DNA of 64,000 nt from NCBI GenBank assembly GCA_019639175.1, contig JAHBSK010000003.1, positions 248,001 to 312,000 of the forward strand, given 5' to 3'. This document shows, piece by piece, positions 54,811 through 64,000 of this stretch (position 1 is its first letter; the number at the start of each line of letters is the position of its first letter). The notes beneath the pieces are model-generated. The model was not told the DNA's origin. It saw only the letters and a program-made list of their open reading frames with translations, and ran no database searches. Origin of the DNA: Acidobacteriota bacterium (lineage in GTDB: Bacteria > Acidobacteriota > Blastocatellia > Pyrinomonadales > Pyrinomonadaceae). The position numbers and the translations under genes are program-made.

Positions 54811-55214
54811 TGATTGCGATTTTCGTTTTTCGGCGGTGCGTTTGTCAAAAGCCGCCCGTTCAGGACGCCGCCGCCCGGACATTTCCGTCAATCGCCTTTG
54901 GGGTCCGAGCCGGCAAAAGATATGGCCGGGACGTTTTTCCAGAATGTTCGGCAAACCGAAAATACGTTTGCGAAGGCTTTCGCGCCAAAAGAAAATTTAA
55001 TAGTGAATTAACAATTTTGCTTGCCTTAAATGCGATTTTGCGATACAAACATCAAAGCATATCTTGCCGTTTTTGTTTACCGCCGATCTTACTGATCGGC
55101 GTTCGCGACCAGGGGATGAATGAGAGAGCATAGGTATTTCCTATTAGTATCACGCCATTTTTTACCTCGGCGAACAGCAAAAAGGCTCACGCATTTTAGA
55201 GGAGAATTAACTTG

Positions 55215-58200
55215 ATGAGAGGAGTTTCTTTACGATCTTCCGGCTGGCTTGCGAAGATCGCCGCCCTATCGCTTTTTGTCCTGCTTGGAGCGGTTTCAGC
55301 TTTTTCGCAGGCCCAGGCCGCAACAGCCGACCTGACCGGTTCCGTCATTGATCCCGGCGGATCGGTCGTTCCGGGAGCCACCATTTCGGCACGCAACATA
55401 AGTACCGGCATCTCGCGAACCGTCACTTCAGGAAGCGACGGCAGTTATCGCTTCATTGCCCTGCCGCCAGGCGAATATGAGATCTCGGCCGATGCCGCGA
55501 CCTTCAAAAAGGTTGTTATCTCACCGGTTCGGCTGACAGTTGGTCAGGTCGCAGAACTCCGTATAAATATGGAGATCGGCGCACAGGACGCAATTGTGAC
55601 CGTCACCGGAGATTCGATAGAACTGATAGAGACGACCAAGACCAACGTCTCGACAACGATAGATCAGGCACGAATAGAGAATCTTCCGATCAATGAAAGA
55701 AGCGCGACGGGATTTGCCCTGACCATTTCTACGGTTGGCCGTGATAATGGCCGCCCGATCGGGCCTGCTCCGACATCCGGCCTCAACATCGGCGGACAGC
55801 GCGGACGCTCAACACTGGTTCAGGTTGACGGTGCCGATTTTACGGACAATTCGATCAACGCCGCCCGCTCGACCGTTTCGCAGGAAGCGGTGCAGGAATA
55901 TCAGGTGGCGACAAACTCTTACGCACCGGAATTTGGCCGTGCCACCGGCGGCATCGTCAACGTTGTCACCAAACGCGGAACAAATGAGTTTCACGGCAAT
56001 GTTTTCGGATTTCTCCGTGACAAGAGCATACAGGCACGCAATGCCTTTGCCCCCATTGCCAATCCCGATTTTCGCCGCACACAGTGGGGAGCCACGTTTG
56101 GAGGCCCGATCGTAAAGGACAAGACGTTCTTCTTTGCGTCATACGAACGCCGTCAGCGTGACGAATCAGGTTTTTTCACAAGCGATCCGGCAGCCGGCCT
56201 CGGTTCATCGGTAACGCTCGGCGCTCCGATACTGCCGTTCACACAGACCTTTGGCGGTTTAACGACCGCACAGGCCGCTTTTGCAAACACTCTTATTTCC
56301 TCGGGAAATCCGACGTTCATAAATGCAGCGGTACAATATCTCTATCTGGCATCGAGCGGGACCTACACTGCTCTGACCGGGACAAATCCGCTGATCAGTG
56401 CCGGCGGAGCGATCCCGGCCGGAACTCAGGTCGGCCCTCGGTTCTTTATCAGCGGAGCACCCGTTCCCGCCGGAACGGTCGGCTCAAGCGGATTGCCTAT
56501 CGCCTTTCGTCCGCTGAACGATCTGCAGCGTGTCTTTCCTGTTACTGAAAGGACAAATTTCTTCTCGATACGCGGCGACCACAGCATCAATACGAACAAC
56601 CAGTTGACGCTGCGTTTTGGCTACAATCCGGGAACGATCACCGGCATTCAGGTCGAATCGCAGAACCAGTCGCTCGGACAGAACGATTTTTCGCGTACCG
56701 GCATTCAGGAACTCAAGGACTACTCGTTCTCGGCCGGCCTTAACTCCGCCATTGGCACGAGCATGGCAAATGAGTTCCGCTTCTCGTTCGGACAGCGCGA
56801 CACGACATTCAGATCGCAGAACGGCGAGGCAGTGGCATTTAACATTTCCGGCACGGCATTTATCGGACGCGAACTCTTTTCGCCGGTTGACCGCACGGAA
56901 CGCCGTTTTCAATTCGCTGATAACTTCAACTGGGTCGTCGGCAATCACACATTCAAATTTGGCGGCGATATAAACTTTATTAACATTCCTGCTGCTGTAT
57001 TTGAACTGAACTTTGCCGGACTGTTCAATTTCGGCCCGTTTGCGGCAGGAAATCTTAATGCGGCATTCGGCCAGCTTGGGGCACCCGATCTTACGCCGGT
57101 TCAGGCTTACGGACTGGGAATGCCTTCGACATATATCCAGGGCTTTGGCGATCCGGTCAGCTCCTTCGGCAACAAGCCGGTCGCATTTTTTGCACAGGAC
57201 ACATGGAAGCTGCATCCGCGTCTGACCATAAATTACGGCGTCCGTTATGACGTCGAGTTTACTGAAACGATCTCTCCTGTCGCTTTCAGCGATCCGCTTT
57301 CAGGCATCAGCCTGTCGGCTTCTGACCTGTTGGCAGCTCAGGATGCCATTGGCGTTCAGCAGGGCTTTCCGCGTGACACCAATAACTGGGCGCCGCGTTT
57401 CGGCTTTGCCTGGGACATAGGCGGCGACAGCAAGACGGTCGTTCGCGGCGCGGTCGGCCTTTTCTACGACCACCCGCTTCTGGCCGTTGCTTTCAACTCT
57501 GACATCGCGGACGCAGCCCAGCAGCAGCAGGCAGTTTTGACGGCAGGCAGCCCGGCATCAACCGCTTTGCTAAATGCTGCCCAGGTATTTCAGGGTACGG
57601 TTTGCGTTCCCGGCGCTCCGCAGACACCGGTCTGTGCGGCACAAGGCCCGACAGTGATGACGCCTGGTGTCGCTCCTTCGGCAAACTATCAGTTCGGCCG
57701 TCAGCGTTTTGACGATCAGACGTTCCCCGGTTTCGGTGCGGTGCTTCCGTTCACCTTGCCTGTTTCAAAGGATTTTGAATATGCCTATGCGACGCAGGCT
57801 AACCTGACCATCGAACGTCAATTAACCAAAGATATGTCGCTTTCGGTAGGTTATATCTACGTCGGTGCCAGACATCTGCCGCACCCGACCGATCTGAACA
57901 CCCCTGACACGGCGGCTCAGATAGAGAACTATCGCAGATGCTTTGGTGCTCTTCCGACCAACATTCAGGCTGTTTCGACGGTCAGCCCGACGGCGTGTAC
58001 CGCTCCGGGAACGTGGGTGAACGTCATCCCCGGAATGATCGCTTTGAACACCACAACGGGTGAAGGCGTGATCGCTCCGGCTATTGCAAACTTCTTCCGC
58101 CCGAATGCTCCTAACTACTTCCTAGCAAGTGCATTGTCCGGCGGAGCGGTATCAAAAGCAGTTTTGGACGGAGCTTTGGCTGCATCCAATACTCTTCGCG

Positions 58201-58979
58201 CACCGGGAACACTGACGCCGTTCGGTGCTGTCAATGCCCAGATCTCCGACGGCAACTCCAGCTATAACGCGATGAACGTTGAGCTGAAACGCCGCTTTGC
58301 GAACAACTTCATGTTCCAGTCGTCATACACTTGGTCACATTCGATAGACGACTCGTCCGATCTGCAAACGCTGCTGATCGCTCAGGACGTGAATCGTTTT
58401 AACCTCGAAAAGGCCAATTCACTTTTCGACCAGCGGCATCGCTTCGTATTTAGCGGAGTGCTTTCATCGCCGCTCAACTGGAGAGGTTCCGATTCCGGCT
58501 GGAAGCGTGTCTTTGCCGATTTCACGCTGGCACCGATCGTCGAGCTTTCATCCGGCAGGCCGTTCAACATAATCACTAACACTGATACGAACAACGACCA
58601 GGCATCACAGACTGACCGTCCGAGCGTCAACTCTGACGGATCGCTCTGTGTTCCCGGCCGGACAGGCTGTTCGACGCCCCTGATAACCGACGGACGTTTC
58701 TCCATCGGAAACTTGGGACGCAACCGCGGCCTCACCCACGGGTTCGCTTCGTTCGATCTTCGTCTGGCACGTGCCTTCCATTTCGGCGAACGGTTCAGGA
58801 TTGATGTGATCGCCGAAGGCTTTAACCTGTTCAACAGGTTCAATGAAGGATCGGCATCACCTTTCATTGAGGACGTGAATGCTGTCGGCCAGACACCGGG
58901 CGGCGGCAAGTATTACAGCCGCTCAACGGCCGCGTACGATTCACGCCAATTCCAGTTCGGCTTTAAGTTCAGCTTCTAA
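55215..58979 (+). CDS. Oar-like TonB-dependent receptor with carboxypeptidase-regulatory domain
   Basis: A 1254-residue outer-membrane protein; ATG 55215 follows a GGAG site (a TTG one codon earlier is possible). After the signal peptide, residues about 35-130 form a carboxypeptidase-regulatory beta-sandwich (LTGSVIDPGGSVVPGATISARN). Then comes a plug domain (RGRSTLVQVDGADFTDNSINA, GGIVNVVTKRGTNEFHGNVFGFLRD) and a long barrel ending in the aromatic strand QFQFGFKFSF. This architecture is massively expanded in Acidobacteriota and is thought to take up large polymers. Own terminator downstream. Confidence 0.92.
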   Translation: MRGVSLRSSGWLAKIAALSLFVLLGAVSAFSQAQAATADLTGSVIDPGGSVVPGATISARNISTGISRTVTSGSDGSYRFIALPPGEYEISADAATFKKVVISPVRLTVGQVAELRINMEIGAQDAIVTVTGDSIELIETTKTNVSTTIDQARIENLPINERSATGFALTISTVGRDNGRPIGPAPTSGLNIGGQRGRSTLVQVDGADFTDNSINAARSTVSQEAVQEYQVATNSYAPEFGRATGGIVNVVTKRGTNEFHGNVFGFLRDKSIQARNAFAPIANPDFRRTQWGATFGGPIVKDKTFFFASYERRQRDESGFFTSDPAAGLGSSVTLGAPILPFTQTFGGLTTAQAAFANTLISSGNPTFINAAVQYLYLASSGTYTALTGTNPLISAGGAIPAGTQVGPRFFISGAPVPAGTVGSSGLPIAFRPLNDLQRVFPVTERTNFFSIRGDHSINTNNQLTLRFGYNPGTITGIQVESQNQSLGQNDFSRTGIQELKDYSFSAGLNSAIGTSMANEFRFSFGQRDTTFRSQNGEAVAFNISGTAFIGRELFSPVDRTERRFQFADNFNWVVGNHTFKFGGDINFINIPAAVFELNFAGLFNFGPFAAGNLNAAFGQLGAPDLTPVQAYGLGMPSTYIQGFGDPVSSFGNKPVAFFAQDTWKLHPRLTINYGVRYDVEFTETISPVAFSDPLSGISLSASDLLAAQDAIGVQQGFPRDTNNWAPRFGFAWDIGGDSKTVVRGAVGLFYDHPLLAVAFNSDIADAAQQQQAVLTAGSPASTALLNAAQVFQGTVCVPGAPQTPVCAAQGPTVMTPGVAPSANYQFGRQRFDDQTFPGFGAVLPFTLPVSKDFEYAYATQANLTIERQLTKDMSLSVGYIYVGARHLPHPTDLNTPDTAAQIENYRRCFGALPTNIQAVSTVSPTACTAPGTWVNVIPGMIALNTTTGEGVIAPAIANFFRPNAPNYFLASALSGGAVSKAVLDGALAASNTLRAPGTLTPFGAVNAQISDGNSSYNAMNVELKRRFANNFMFQSSYTWSHSIDDSSDLQTLLIAQDVNRFNLEKANSLFDQRHRFVFSGVLSSPLNWRGSDSGWKRVFADFTLAPIVELSSGRPFNIITNTDTNNDQASQTDRPSVNSDGSLCVPGRTGCSTPLITDGRFSIGNLGRNRGLTHGFASFDLRLARAFHFGERFRIDVIAEGFNLFNRFNEGSASPFIEDVNAVGQTPGGGKYYSRSTAAYDSRQFQFGFKFSF

Positions 58980-59335: not shown

Positions 59336-60196
59336 ATGTCTTCCATACATTTCACCAAGTTTCACGGCTTTGAAAACGACTATATCGTTATAGAAAGATC
59401 CGCAATACCGGCTGATACCGACCTGTCGGAGTTGGCAAAGGCCATCTGTCACCGACACACCGGCGCCGGAGCAGACGGCATTGCGGTCATCGAGAAAAAA
59501 GATGGCGTGGACGCTGATTATTTCTGCGAGATCGTCAATCCTGACGGCAGCTACGCAGGTTTTTCCGGCAACGGCACTCGGTGCGCGGTCGCATATATCT
59601 ACAAGAACGGCTGGAATGGTAACGAGCTTAGGCTGGAAACCCGCAGCGGCATCAAGGATTTTACCCTGATCGAAAACGGCGGTAACGGCTGTTACTGGTT
59701 TGAGGCCGCGATCGGAAAACCGCTATTTTCCGGCAGCGAGGTCCCGATTGCTACGGACGAACCGACGGACACGGTGATCGACCTTCCGGTCAGGCTGGAT
59801 GACGGCGTTTTTCTGATGTCAGGCGTCAATGTGGGCAATCCCGTAGCGGTCGCGTTTGTCGGCGATTTTGATTTTGACTGGCGCAAATACGGCCGCGAGC
59901 TGGAAGTTCATCCTTTATTTCCCGAAAAGGCGAACATCGTTTTCATCAGGGTGATCGACCGCGAAAATATTGAGATACGCATCTGGGAACGCGCCGCAGG
60001 CGAAACAGCAGCGTCGGGAACGTGCGCAAGCGGCTCCGCCGTGCTGAGCGCCCTGACCGGACGAACCGAGCGCACCGTTTCGGTCATCAGTCCCGGCGGA
60101 ACGACCGAGATCCATTGGCGCGACGATGACGAGATACTGCTTACGGGCCGTGCCGACCTTTCCTATTCAGGCGTATGGCCGCTGTCAGCAAAGTGA
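59336..60196 (+). CDS. dapF: Diaminopimelate epimerase homologue with Ser/Ser active site
   Basis: A 286-residue two-lobed protein of the DapF fold: FTKFHGFENDYIVIE, NPDGSYAGFSGNGTRC, MSGVNVGNPVAVAFV and WERAAGETAASGTCASGSA. DapF converts LL- to meso-diaminopimelate using two cysteines, normally in CGNG and GETxACG. Here both positions are serine (S78 in FSGNG, S227 in AASGT). C83 and C230 are nearby but in other positions. It may be a serine-based epimerase, a different amino acid epimerase or an inactive paralogue. Confidence 0.8.
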   Translation: MSSIHFTKFHGFENDYIVIERSAIPADTDLSELAKAICHRHTGAGADGIAVIEKKDGVDADYFCEIVNPDGSYAGFSGNGTRCAVAYIYKNGWNGNELRLETRSGIKDFTLIENGGNGCYWFEAAIGKPLFSGSEVPIATDEPTDTVIDLPVRLDDGVFLMSGVNVGNPVAVAFVGDFDFDWRKYGRELEVHPLFPEKANIVFIRVIDRENIEIRIWERAAGETAASGTCASGSAVLSALTGRTERTVSVISPGGTTEIHWRDDDEILLTGRADLSYSGVWPLSAK

Positions 60197-60201
60197 CCTC
60201 A

Positions 60202-62112
60202 TTACCGAACCGGCGTCATCGAAAAATATGCGACTGCCGCGTCGTGGTCAGAGAACCTTTCGGGACGGTTCGTGTCGTTGCGATACGAATCGGGGTGATC
60301 CGCGTTGACGCGGGCGTAACCGAACCCGCTTATATGGTCACGCAGCGTCACTGAGATAAGAAAATGGTCAATGACCTGAGCATTGCCGTCATACGTATAT
60401 GAATACCGCTGTGACGCATCTATCACATCGACTAGGTTTATCAGGTCGGGTTCGACGATGTCCGGCGAAAAATTAAAGACGGCATCTTTTGCGGCTGGTT
60501 TGCCGGTGATGATGCCGAGCAGATCCAGCACGCCGTCATTGAACTGATACGCGTTCATGTCGCCCAAAACGATGATCCGTTCTTTCGGGTCGGCCTTTTG
60601 CCTTTCCTGCACGATCTTTGCCAGATATTCGGCCTGCAGCCGCTTTTTCATCCGAACATTGTCCCGCTGATTGGGGTCGTTATAACCGAGAAATGATTTC
60701 AGGTGATTGGCAAACACGGTCAGGCCAAAATCGCCTCCGGTATTTCTGGTCACAACGCGGATCATCAGCGGCGGACGGTCGTTAAGATGAACGCTCTCGC
60801 CCGTTCTCGGATGTTTGTATTTCTCGTCCTTGCCGAATTGTTTTACCTCAACGACCCTGAGTTTTGCGGTCTTTACAAGAAAACCGTTGTCGATGCCGCG
60901 TCCGTCATTTCCGTCCTCAAGGAACGCCTCATACTGCGGATCGGGCTTGCCGGAACTCACCGCATCGCGGTTTATCGCTTCTGCCAGCCGCTTCAATCCG
61001 GCGAGGTTCTCCGCCTCGGCAACACCGATGACATCGGGCAGCGTCAGCACGTCTCTGAAAGCAAGCGAGATCTTTTTCAGGCGTCCTGCAAATGCCTCTT
61101 TGGTGACGACAGGCTCTTTTATTTTCGGGTCGTCATGGTCGTCAAAAAAGTTCTCAAGATTTATGCTTGCGACCGAGATCTGCCCGGCTTTCGGCTCCGG
61201 CATCGGAACCGGTTTTATTGTCGATGACTGTTTGTGTTTGCTGTCGGCATCCACCAAAAGGGTAAAATTTCTGAACGCATAATGCATGACGCCGGTCAGG
61301 TCGGCGATCTCGGTGTTTGCCGCCGCTTCTATCGCCGTGCCGCCGATCTGGCCCAGGCTTTCGACGCGAATTTTTTGCGGATTTCCGTCAAATATCGGCA
61401 GGTTCGGGAAATTCTTTTGGAGTGCCTCTTTTTCGGTATCCTTCAAAAAAACAATGTCAAAAATATCAAGCCCAGGCTCGCGAAACGGCCTCGGAATGCC
61501 CTTCAGCACGCCAAAAAAAACGCCGTTCGATGCTGACCGCGACGTGGCGATGTCAACGCGGCCGCCTGTCGGGGCAACGACCGTCATCGCCGCAACATAG
61601 ACACGCATTCCCTCATACCGTTCAAGCTGGTCTATCTTGTTCGATTCAAAATGGCCCGGCGTAAGTTCCACCGGTTTTGGCAGCGGATTTCCGCCAGAGA
61701 TCACTTTGACGCTGTCGCGTCCGGCCTGCATCGAGATCTCGGTCAGCGGCAGCGTGTTCGGTTCGTTCCGCGGGCGATATTCCTCGACCGTTCCGGTAAC
61801 GGAAACCAGATTGCCGATGGCAGCTTCTTTCGGCGGCGCGGTGCGTGTAAAAACAAAAACGCCCTCAGACGTAAGCGGATCGTCGTCCGTCCGATCATCG
61901 GGTGTCTGGATAAAAAATCCGGTGCGGTGCAGTGCGGTGACAACGCCCTGAGCGCGAACCCGTTCACCCATGACGGACGACATATTGCTGCTGCCCTGAA
62001 TGGCGGAGATCGCCATCTCACGCTGCGCCGCGACGGCGAGGGCCGCTCCGACACAAACGACGGCCATAAGCGCGGCCCTGACGGCCATGTCACATATCTT
62101 TTTTGATCTCAT
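60202..62112 (-). CDS. Secreted ExeM/NucH-like endonuclease/exonuclease/phosphatase
   Basis: A 636-residue protein with a signal peptide (ends AVAAQ). The N-terminal part is an OB-like domain as in extracellular nucleases (SSVMGERVRAQGVVTALHRTGFFIQTPDDRTDDD, TSEGVFVFTR). The C-terminal half is an EEP nuclease domain: SINLENFF, GVAEAENLAGLKRL, FANHLKSFLG, IVLGDMNAYQF and a final SDHDAAVAYF. It likely degrades extracellular DNA. It begins directly after the stop of a second secreted nuclease gene on the same strand. Confidence 0.88.
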   Translation of the reverse strand: MRSKKICDMAVRAALMAVVCVGAALAVAAQREMAISAIQGSSNMSSVMGERVRAQGVVTALHRTGFFIQTPDDRTDDDPLTSEGVFVFTRTAPPKEAAIGNLVSVTGTVEEYRPRNEPNTLPLTEISMQAGRDSVKVISGGNPLPKPVELTPGHFESNKIDQLERYEGMRVYVAAMTVVAPTGGRVDIATSRSASNGVFFGVLKGIPRPFREPGLDIFDIVFLKDTEKEALQKNFPNLPIFDGNPQKIRVESLGQIGGTAIEAAANTEIADLTGVMHYAFRNFTLLVDADSKHKQSSTIKPVPMPEPKAGQISVASINLENFFDDHDDPKIKEPVVTKEAFAGRLKKISLAFRDVLTLPDVIGVAEAENLAGLKRLAEAINRDAVSSGKPDPQYEAFLEDGNDGRGIDNGFLVKTAKLRVVEVKQFGKDEKYKHPRTGESVHLNDRPPLMIRVVTRNTGGDFGLTVFANHLKSFLGYNDPNQRDNVRMKKRLQAEYLAKIVQERQKADPKERIIVLGDMNAYQFNDGVLDLLGIITGKPAAKDAVFNFSPDIVEPDLINLVDVIDASQRYSYTYDGNAQVIDHFLISVTLRDHISGFGYARVNADHPDSYRNDTNRPERFSDHDAAVAYFSMTPVR

Positions 62113-63831
62113 TTATTCTCTGTCCCGACGGCGTTCCATCAATTCCTGTGTGTTCTTGCCTACGTTCGTAAAGAAATCGTAACCGGTGAGGAGTTCGACC
62201 TCCTTGACCGTGACCCTAAAGCTGCGCCACGGAGCATTCGAGGCTATCGGGCCAAAATTCGGCACGATTATCCCCAGCGCCCGCGTGCCTTTATTGATTC
62301 GGCGGAGGTCGTCATCGCCATTGGGAATGACCAGTATTACCTTCCACGTATATTCCGGAACGACGATGTTCCCGTTGGCAATGGTGCCAAGCTGGCCGTG
62401 AACGCCGGAATAGATGTATATCTCATTTCCGGCGGCGGCCAGAGTGCGGATATATGTTTCAAATTTTTCCCACGGCCCCTGATTGTTCGGGCCGTATTGC
62501 GGAACCATGTTCGTCATCAGGAACGTCGCGGAGTTGTCGGCAATGCTACGCGTCCTGTCGCCCGAAGGACACATATGCCCTCGGTCATAGCCCGAACCGG
62601 AATAATCCGAATCCTCAACGCGATACCAGCCCGCCGGCAGATCGGGATCGGGACGATAATCGTCCTGACGGCTTGCGGTGCCGATCCAACTGCTGTCCAG
62701 CCGCCACGCAACCCAGTTCGCCGTCGCCCGCGAGCGGTTGTACGAGAGCGAATACTGCGGCTTGTGCATCAGGTAATTATTTTCATTCGCAACATCAGGC
62801 GTGGCGTTGCTCGGGTTGCCGAGCAGCAGCGGATCGTCATTTGGCAGCGGCGCGTTTATGGTCAGCGTGACCGAAACGTTCATCGACCGCATCTGTGCGT
62901 CCGAAGCAGTGGCGTTTACCACTCTGTTTCCGCCCGAAGCTTCGGCGGGAATGGTTGCCAGATAGGAAAAGATGTTATCGCCCGGAGCTGCATCGCCGTT
63001 CGTGCCGTCGTCAAAGAACTGCTGTCCCGCCGATCCGCCGATGGTCGAAAGGTCGCCGATGACGGTTATTCCGGTGCTTGGCGGTTCTGTCGCGGGGATG
63101 ACCGTTACGGTCAGCAGCGTCGTTCCGCCAGCCGAAACGGTCGTCGGATTTGCGTTCATCGCCGCAAAAAGCGTCTCGCCCGAACCGCTGCACGGAACCG
63201 GAGCGGATGAGGAGTTTCTCGGCGCCGACGGCACAAGCGTTTCAAAATCGGCGGAGTTATTGTCCGTGTCCTGACAGCCGCTTTCCTTTCTTGCCTTGCT
63301 GTTGTTATTGCCGGGAGCAGTCGCCGCCGTGCCTTCGACAAAGATATTCGTCGCCGTTCCCCAGCCGACAGAATCGATGATCGCGCCGATGTTCTGCGCT
63401 CCCTGCCGCAAGGCAAGGCCGCCGCCGTTCGCTCCCATTGAACACGCACATGCTGACGTGCTGTATATCCTGTCCGGCGTCACGCCGCCGTCATAAGAAT
63501 TTGACGCAACTAAGTAAAACCCGCCCGGCGGAATAATGGTGCTTGTCGTCCATTCGGTAAGCGGCCCGACATCATTTGTCCCGGCAGCCGAACGATAGAC
63601 GAGGCGAAAGCCGTTCAGGTCTATCGGCGCCGAACTTGTATTGTGTATCTCTACAAATTCATCATTGGCATCGTTGCCGCCTGCCTGAAACTGGCTGATG
63701 ACAAGGTGCGGCGAAACAAGAGCGGCCGATCTGTCTTCACGTGCGGTCTGTGCAAACGAGACGCCATCGCTGAAGTAAAAGGCCGTGGCGGCAATAAAAA
63801 GGCAAAATACGCCCGCAATATATCTGTTCAT
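62113..63831 (-). CDS. Secreted DNA/RNA non-specific endonuclease with lamin-tail domain
   Basis: Started at ATG 63831 after an AAGGAT site; 572 residues. A signal peptide (SFAQ) is followed by a lamin-tail domain at about residues 40-190 (VISQFQAGGNDANDEFVEIHNTSSAPIDLNGFRLVY). A beta region follows (about 215-330, Ig-like), then a NucA/NucB-type beta-beta-alpha nuclease with the D-R-G-H-M-C-P-S catalytic motif and downstream NMVPQYGPNNQGPWEKFE. Lamin-tail domains often anchor secreted nucleases and phosphatases. It is the first gene of a two-nuclease operon. Confidence 0.9.
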   Translation of the reverse strand: MNRYIAGVFCLFIAATAFYFSDGVSFAQTAREDRSAALVSPHLVISQFQAGGNDANDEFVEIHNTSSAPIDLNGFRLVYRSAAGTNDVGPLTEWTTSTIIPPGGFYLVASNSYDGGVTPDRIYSTSACACSMGANGGGLALRQGAQNIGAIIDSVGWGTATNIFVEGTAATAPGNNNSKARKESGCQDTDNNSADFETLVPSAPRNSSSAPVPCSGSGETLFAAMNANPTTVSAGGTTLLTVTVIPATEPPSTGITVIGDLSTIGGSAGQQFFDDGTNGDAAPGDNIFSYLATIPAEASGGNRVVNATASDAQMRSMNVSVTLTINAPLPNDDPLLLGNPSNATPDVANENNYLMHKPQYSLSYNRSRATANWVAWRLDSSWIGTASRQDDYRPDPDLPAGWYRVEDSDYSGSGYDRGHMCPSGDRTRSIADNSATFLMTNMVPQYGPNNQGPWEKFETYIRTLAAAGNEIYIYSGVHGQLGTIANGNIVVPEYTWKVILVIPNGDDDLRRINKGTRALGIIVPNFGPIASNAPWRSFRVTVKEVELLTGYDFFTNVGKNTQELMERRRDRE

Positions 63832-64000
63832 CAATATATCCTTATTATGGTGTCCAGCAAGAAATAATCTTAACGAGGTAATTTTACATTTGTATCACAT
63901 TTTGCGGGGTAAAGGAATGTTTTGGACGCCTTCTACGACAGAAGACGCCCTGCATCAAAATGCTTAAAAAGCAAAACTGCCGCCTTTTATTGAACAAATG

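Follow-up and report, generated by a model that had tools for sequence, protein, structure and literature searches.

DapF, the diaminopimelate (DAP) epimerase, converts LL-DAP to meso-DAP by a 1,1-proton transfer between two faces of the substrate. Enzymologists still ask how a thiolate, which is a weak base, can remove a proton whose pKa is about 29; the textbook answer is a tuned pair of cysteines. The same fold has also given rise to racemases of histidine, O-ureidoserine and 2,4-diaminobutyrate. In Anabaena DapF the catalytic cysteines are situated right before the N-terminal ends of two helices, according to the available text of the structural report (PMC12039745), and in the DapF of Corynebacterium glutamicum, as far as the accessible part of the study goes, alanine at the equivalent substrate ligands nearly removes activity and a disulfide between the catalytic cysteines, formed under peroxide, gives an inactive enzyme (PMC5296763). 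Engineering a single cysteine to serine brought the DapF relative PddB to under 0.1% of its activity (available text of PMC8225329) and greatly lowered that of the histidine racemase HisR (available text of PMC11602996). Natural serines are known from the proline racemase superfamily, for which the portion of the report available to us describes a Ser/Cys 4-hydroxyproline epimerase, a Ser/Thr trans-3-hydroxyproline dehydratase and some clusters without one or both cysteines (PMC4113996); the initial annotation of the locus studied here, which had this superfamily tolerating serine at one of the two positions, was right and even understated the case. We found no published natural DapF with serine at both positions (Ser/Ser) in the open-licence literature.

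Here we describe such a protein, encoded in a window of 64,000 nucleotides from an acidobacterial genome of the Pyrinomonadaceae (GCA_019639175.1, contig JAHBSK010000003.1, positions 248,001 to 312,000).

Results

The window protein scored 191.5 bits against TIGR00652, the DapF equivalog model (cut-off 114.65), and PF01678 (143.9 bits) was its sole Pfam match at E up to 0.001, with no match in that search to the proline racemase family (PF05544). It reached 49.4 bits with NF038284, the model for bifunctional DapF/glutamate racemases, against a cut-off of 350. An AlphaFold2 model based on an alignment of 49 sequences (mean pLDDT 95, pTM 0.90) had Anabaena DapF (9mro) as its closest structure, with Z 37.3 and rmsd 1.9 over 273 aligned residues, a match that gives the window protein the two-domain DapF fold.

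The protein carries the motifs FSGNGTRC and GETAASGTC. An HMMER alignment sets S77 and S227 opposite the cysteines of CGNG and ACGTG in 9mro, an alignment to E. coli K-12 DapF pairs them with C73 and C217, and in the AlphaFold2 model they lie immediately N-terminal of helices 78-90 and 228-240. These sequence alignments and the helix boundaries of the model place S77 and S227 exactly at the positions of DapF's catalytic cysteines (Table 1). Two nearby cysteines, C83 and C230, were considered as catalytic residues and rejected on the same three grounds: C83 aligns with E. coli C79, an ordinary non-catalytic cysteine, and C230 with E. coli G220, and both fall within helices of the model, C83 in the first and C230 in the second. 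The initial annotation was thus correct that both catalytic cysteines have become serine, and its Ser/Ser observation survives the structure-based comparison that might have placed C83 and C230 at the catalytic positions; its numbers for S227, C83 and C230 hold as well, and only the first serine, given there as S78, has to be renumbered to residue 77. By fold, ligands and context the window protein is a DapF, and by its catalytic pair it is not, having S77 and S227 where the family has two cysteines; it is a Ser/Ser variant and not a canonical member.

Table 1 Features of the Ser/Ser dapF gene in the window.
Feature	Position	Strand	Basis
dapF, Ser/Ser variant, 286 aa, ATG start	59336..60196	+	ORF, TIGR00652, PF01678; start as in the 90% identical relative L004
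N14, DAP ligand (E. coli N11, Anabaena N13)	59375..59377	+	alignment; ligand list in available text of PMC12039745
N68, distal DAP ligand (E. coli N64, Anabaena N66)	59537..59539	+	alignment; available text of PMC12039745
S77, codon TCC, site of first catalytic cysteine (E. coli C73)	59564..59566	+	alignments, AlphaFold2 model
N168, distal DAP ligand (E. coli N157, Anabaena N164)	59837..59839	+	alignment; available text of PMC12039745
V170, His in the 40 non-divergent Cys/Cys rows, relaxed in Ser/Ser rows	59843..59845	+	alignment
N200, distal DAP ligand (E. coli N190, Anabaena N197)	59933..59935	+	alignment; available text of PMC12039745
E218-R219, distal DAP ligands (E. coli E208-R209, Anabaena E215-R216)	59987..59992	+	alignment; available text of PMC12039745
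S227, codon TCG, site of second catalytic cysteine (E. coli C217)	60014..60016	+	alignments, AlphaFold2 model

Elsewhere in the window, two adjacent nuclease genes occupy 60202-63834 (-); the product of one belongs to the endonuclease/exonuclease/phosphatase family, and that of the other has a lamin-tail domain together with a DNA/RNA non-specific endonuclease domain. At 55212-58979 (+) lies the gene of a large beta-barrel protein of the outer membrane that carries a carboxypeptidase regulatory-like domain.

All six DAP ligands listed in the available text of the Anabaena report (N14, N68, N168, N200, E218 and R219) are present in the window protein by the alignment, and the same set is complete in 87 of the 89 Ser/Ser sequences that we aligned, the exceptions being L148 and L150. 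The column of residue 170 behaves otherwise: histidine stands there in 40/40 Cys/Cys rows outside a divergent group but in only 48 of the 89 Ser/Ser rows, and the 41 losses cluster by lineage. A column-by-column comparison of the 89 Ser/Ser rows with 33 and 7 Cys/Cys rows revealed no new invariant ionisable residue that could substitute as base in the Ser/Ser class; K107 is commoner in Ser/Ser rows without being invariant (56 Lys and 21 Arg of 89).

Compared with the 90% identical L004, the window gene gave dN 0.061 and dS 0.833 (dN/dS about 0.07), so that dapF is under strong purifying selection; this value and the full set of ligands bear out the earlier statement that the gene is not decaying. 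Of the 89 Ser/Ser rows, 82 encode S77 by TCN and 7 by AGC, whereas 88 encode S227 by TCN and 1 by AGC; serine has been kept at both sites despite these shifts. No single base change connects the TCN and AGC boxes, hence each switch needs another residue in between, possibly cysteine, or two simultaneous changes.

The distribution of the pair was surveyed in 99 Acidobacteriota genomes that are 90% complete or more, this being the only phylum sampled systematically. A Ser/Ser DapF was present in 55 of them, alone in 52 and together with an extra divergent Cys/Cys homologue below the model cut-off in three; the remainder had only a Cys/Cys DapF (33 genomes), a Cys/Ser one (3), only the divergent Cys/Cys homologue (6) or none (2). 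None of the 99 had two copies over the cut-off. Counted by family, 27 were Ser/Ser, 19 Cys/Cys, 3 Cys/Ser, 1 mixed and 1 of the divergent type only. The 142 aligned DapF-family rows comprise 89 Ser/Ser, 49 Cys/Cys and 4 Cys/Ser sequences, with no Ser/Cys pair among them. Because the Ser/Ser pair is found in 89 of 142 rows and Ser77 never without Ser227, its occurrence is far beyond chance.

A homologue was found in 37 of 40 relatives searched, and all 34 in which both sites could be read were Ser/Ser; fragments in two more (G016 and G023) showed one site each, serine both times, and the homologue of G006 was left unread. The nearest named relatives are uncultured Acidobacteria, some of them labelled Pyrinomonadaceae. 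The Ser/Ser pair is therefore a lineage trait of much of the Acidobacteriota and not peculiar to the window's genome.

Three acidobacterial families contain a single-copy Cys/Ser DapF with serine at the second site only (L080, L134 and L155), and it is possible that these are evolutionary intermediates. The divergent Cys/Cys homologue below the model cut-off (L170-L177, from G103, G074, G093, G064, G084, G128, G050 and G120, and L167 from G112) mostly has the motifs FCSNGSRA and CCGTG, with Asp replacing the N68 ligand, and is the sole DapF-like gene in 6/99 genomes. A plasmid collection yielded 114 matching records, none above 60% identity among the best 20 of the 114; five of the six small stretches that were read are Cys/Cys and one is Cys/Ser. 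This collection includes the Cys/Ser DapF-like copy of Burkholderia stagnalis (L211, 301-1086), which lies on a 3.2 Mb replicon recorded as a plasmid.

Phylogenetic analysis was performed on the 142 rows left after dropping duplicate or fragment loci (L001-L003, L022, L032-L045, L051 and L064). With the two catalytic columns excluded from tree building, Ser/Ser takes at least four changes, two of them forced by well-supported branches. A single Ser/Ser clade was not rejected with all 142 rows (LG+G4, AU p 0.148) and was rejected (p 0.016) under a mixture model with 55 rows picked after the tree was seen. In the latter subset, joining L148 and L150 to the main Ser/Ser group was rejected (p 0.038) and joining the L053 group to it was not (p 0.66). 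L148 and L150 are placed among Cys/Cys and Cys/Ser rows, with which they have the motif GVExETL in common. Ser/Ser is likely to have arisen at least twice.

The L053 group, a separate set of Ser/Ser sequences, consists of L053, L077, L119 and L121. The planctomycete genome from which L053 comes (G133) encodes a canonical Cys/Cys DapF as well, and in the three acidobacterial genomes of the group (f26) the Ser/Ser copy accompanies the divergent Cys/Cys homologue. The Ser/Ser DapF of this group behaves as an accessory copy, for which another role is a serious possibility.

We then asked whether the window's genome (G000; 97.67% complete, 21 contigs) needs meso-DAP and could obtain it otherwise. 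A Pfam profile search found one PF01678 gene only, so that the second dapF for which the initial annotation had left room did not turn up in this assembly. Meso-DAP dehydrogenase was absent from 40 of 40 genomes, G000 included, while the positive control was detected in Corynebacterium and Bacteroides, and the dehydrogenase route was rejected on this count. A single stretch of contig C1 carries lysC (aspartokinase), an M20 deacylase gene, dapB, dapA, dapD, an aminotransferase gene and asd. DapD scores 293.4 bits (cut-off 204) and is over the cut-off in 34/40 genomes; the deacylase and the aminotransferase score below the specific DapE, DapC and DapL cut-offs, and the DapE and DapC steps are assigned by their position in the operon. 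The LL-DAP aminotransferase route gave matches, none over cut-off, which leaves the succinylase route as the supported one. Similar dap clusters occur in three other Ser/Ser genomes (G009, G025 and G027). In G000 dapF itself lies outside the dap operon.

Downstream, LysA of G000 scores 316.1 bits (cut-off 297.9), and LysA requires the D-centre of meso-DAP. The same protein (L168, 5081-6607) matches the ornithine/lysine decarboxylase model slightly better (335 bits, far under the cut-off of 700 of that model), and the LysA model matches it in two stretches, as if an insertion were present. MurE of G000 contains a DNPR motif, presumably the mark of a DAP-adding MurE. The aminoadipate route to lysine was rejected for G000, where LysX is below cut-off; of the 40 genomes, G028 and G030 alone have a LysX over cut-off. 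G000 makes LL-DAP and needs meso-DAP, the DapE and DapC assignments being weaker than the rest. Since the succinylase route ends at LL-DAP, some enzyme must make meso-DAP, and the Ser/Ser DapF is the only recognised candidate.

The two genomes with LysX over cut-off have neither LysA nor DapD over cut-off and retain a Ser/Ser DapF, and MurE of G028 has the DNPR motif; the retention fits a role in the cell wall. G028 (f5) has no over-cut-off DapB, DapD, LL-DAP aminotransferase, LysA or meso-DAP dehydrogenase despite its Ser/Ser DapF and DNPR MurE, and G034 and G038 (f3) combine an over-cut-off LysA and a Ser/Ser DapF with no DapB match and no DapD over cut-off.

An M20 deacylase gene adjoins or lies near Ser/Ser dapF at L077 (where it follows directly), L090, L113 and L114, and E. 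coli DapE is also a weak match at L061 and L111. As evidence this proximity is weak, because the L203 deacylase scores better as another M20 family.

Discussion

The window protein is probably a working DAP epimerase with serines at both acid/base positions, by a chemistry that is unexplained because engineered Cys-to-Ser changes nearly abolish the activity of relatives. On our best reading it is the organism's only DAP epimerase, supplying meso-DAP for peptidoglycan through MurE and for lysine through LysA. DAP would be bound as in an ordinary DapF, and the acid/base residues facing the substrate alpha carbon would be the serines at the N-termini of helices 2 and 4. The usual proton transfer would then take place in a closed, desolvated site, where a serine hydroxyl or alkoxide would act as base on one face, perhaps relayed by a bound water molecule, and the serine across from it would be the acid. 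Helix dipoles and hydrogen bonds to the alpha-carboxylate would assist the transfer. A possible gain would be immunity to the disulfide that inactivates oxidised Cys/Cys DapF.

Evidence against a working epimerase comes from genomes elsewhere in which Ser/Ser and Cys/Cys copies coexist, so that some Ser/Ser copies may have another function. The engineered Cys-to-Ser relatives weigh against it too, as do the lack in G028 of any DapB, DapD, DapL or dehydrogenase over cut-off beside its Ser/Ser DapF, the scores of the G000 deacylase and aminotransferase below the specific cut-offs, and an assembly of G000 that is 97.67% complete in 21 contigs. For the window protein we think it unlikely that it binds DAP without epimerising it and does another job, as a regulator or as an enzyme partner in the manner of E. 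coli DapF with RppH, an unrelated enzyme making meso-DAP. Such a role would accord with the near loss of activity in engineered Cys-to-Ser relatives (available text of PMC8225329 and PMC11602996), with the binding of RppH by E. coli DapF, as given in structure titles, and with the absence from 41/89 Ser/Ser rows of the histidine that is constant in the 40 Cys/Cys rows; however, the DAP ligands are all retained, the need for meso-DAP is complete in G000 and the genome has neither a second PF01678 gene nor a meso-DAP dehydrogenase. We know of no alternative epimerase for the step from LL-DAP to meso-DAP, and a non-homologous one in G000 is possible. The different role that the initial annotation had offered for this gene is opposed by a DAP pathway that needs an epimerase and by an unchanged substrate site.

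In favour of the idea that this protein of DapF fold racemises or epimerises another amino acid, or works as a lyase or dehydratase, are the accessory Ser/Ser copies that exist beside Cys/Cys ones and the dehydratase among the single-serine members of the proline racemase family (available text of PMC4113996). We consider this improbable, given that 87/89 Ser/Ser rows keep the ligands for the distal end of DAP and that the window protein is over the DapF equivalog cut-off. It is very improbable that LL-DAP is used directly in peptidoglycan and that the Ser/Ser protein is a relic or a minor enzyme: the open-licence literature gave no analysis of the wall diamino acid in this lineage that would speak to the contrary, but the over-cut-off LysA, as known for its family, needs the D-centre of meso-DAP, and a dN/dS of about 0.07 with a full ligand set is unlike a relic. 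An assembly or contamination artefact, which the predominance of metagenome assemblies among the relatives might suggest, has a negligible chance of being true and is refuted by recurrence of the pair in 89 rows from many families, including L063 and L136 from assemblies of 2 and 3 contigs (G034 and G118).

Taking the window protein as a working Ser/Ser epimerase, we may ask how far the case extends. The wider proposal, to which we give even odds, is that a thiol-free Ser/Ser DAP epimerase makes the meso-DAP of a large part of the phylum, with a chemistry undescribed for any DapF, and that it evolved from Cys/Cys ancestors two or more times, possibly by way of a Cys/Ser state that some single-copy lineages alive today still show. 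If a natural Ser/Ser DapF does perform this essential job, thiols are not required for it, many natural sequences, Cys/Ser ones included, are at hand for finding what replaces them, and many members of the phylum are predicted to be insensitive to cysteine-alkylating DapF inhibitors and to the Cys/Cys redox switch. If instead the Ser/Ser protein is inactive, an undiscovered route to meso-DAP exists.

Among known systems, the PhzF family shares the fold of the window protein but lacks the cysteine pair (Z about 26, 14-15% identity), PhzF being an isomerase that uses other residues. The Ser/Cys epimerase and the Ser/Thr dehydratase of the proline racemase superfamily, as far as the available text of the report describes them, share with the window protein a natural catalytic serine and the fold class, but belong to another family with other substrates, and the epimerase retains one cysteine (PMC4113996). 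DapF itself (TIGR00652; Anabaena 9mro, H. influenzae 1gqz, E. coli 4ijz) agrees with the window protein in fold, length, model score, DAP ligands and pathway need, and differs from it in having Cys/Cys for Ser/Ser and His for Val at 170. The C73S and C217S forms of H. influenzae DapF (2q9h, 2q9j) have the same fold with serine at one or the other catalytic site; these are single mutants made in the laboratory, whereas the window protein carries both serines, and carries them naturally.
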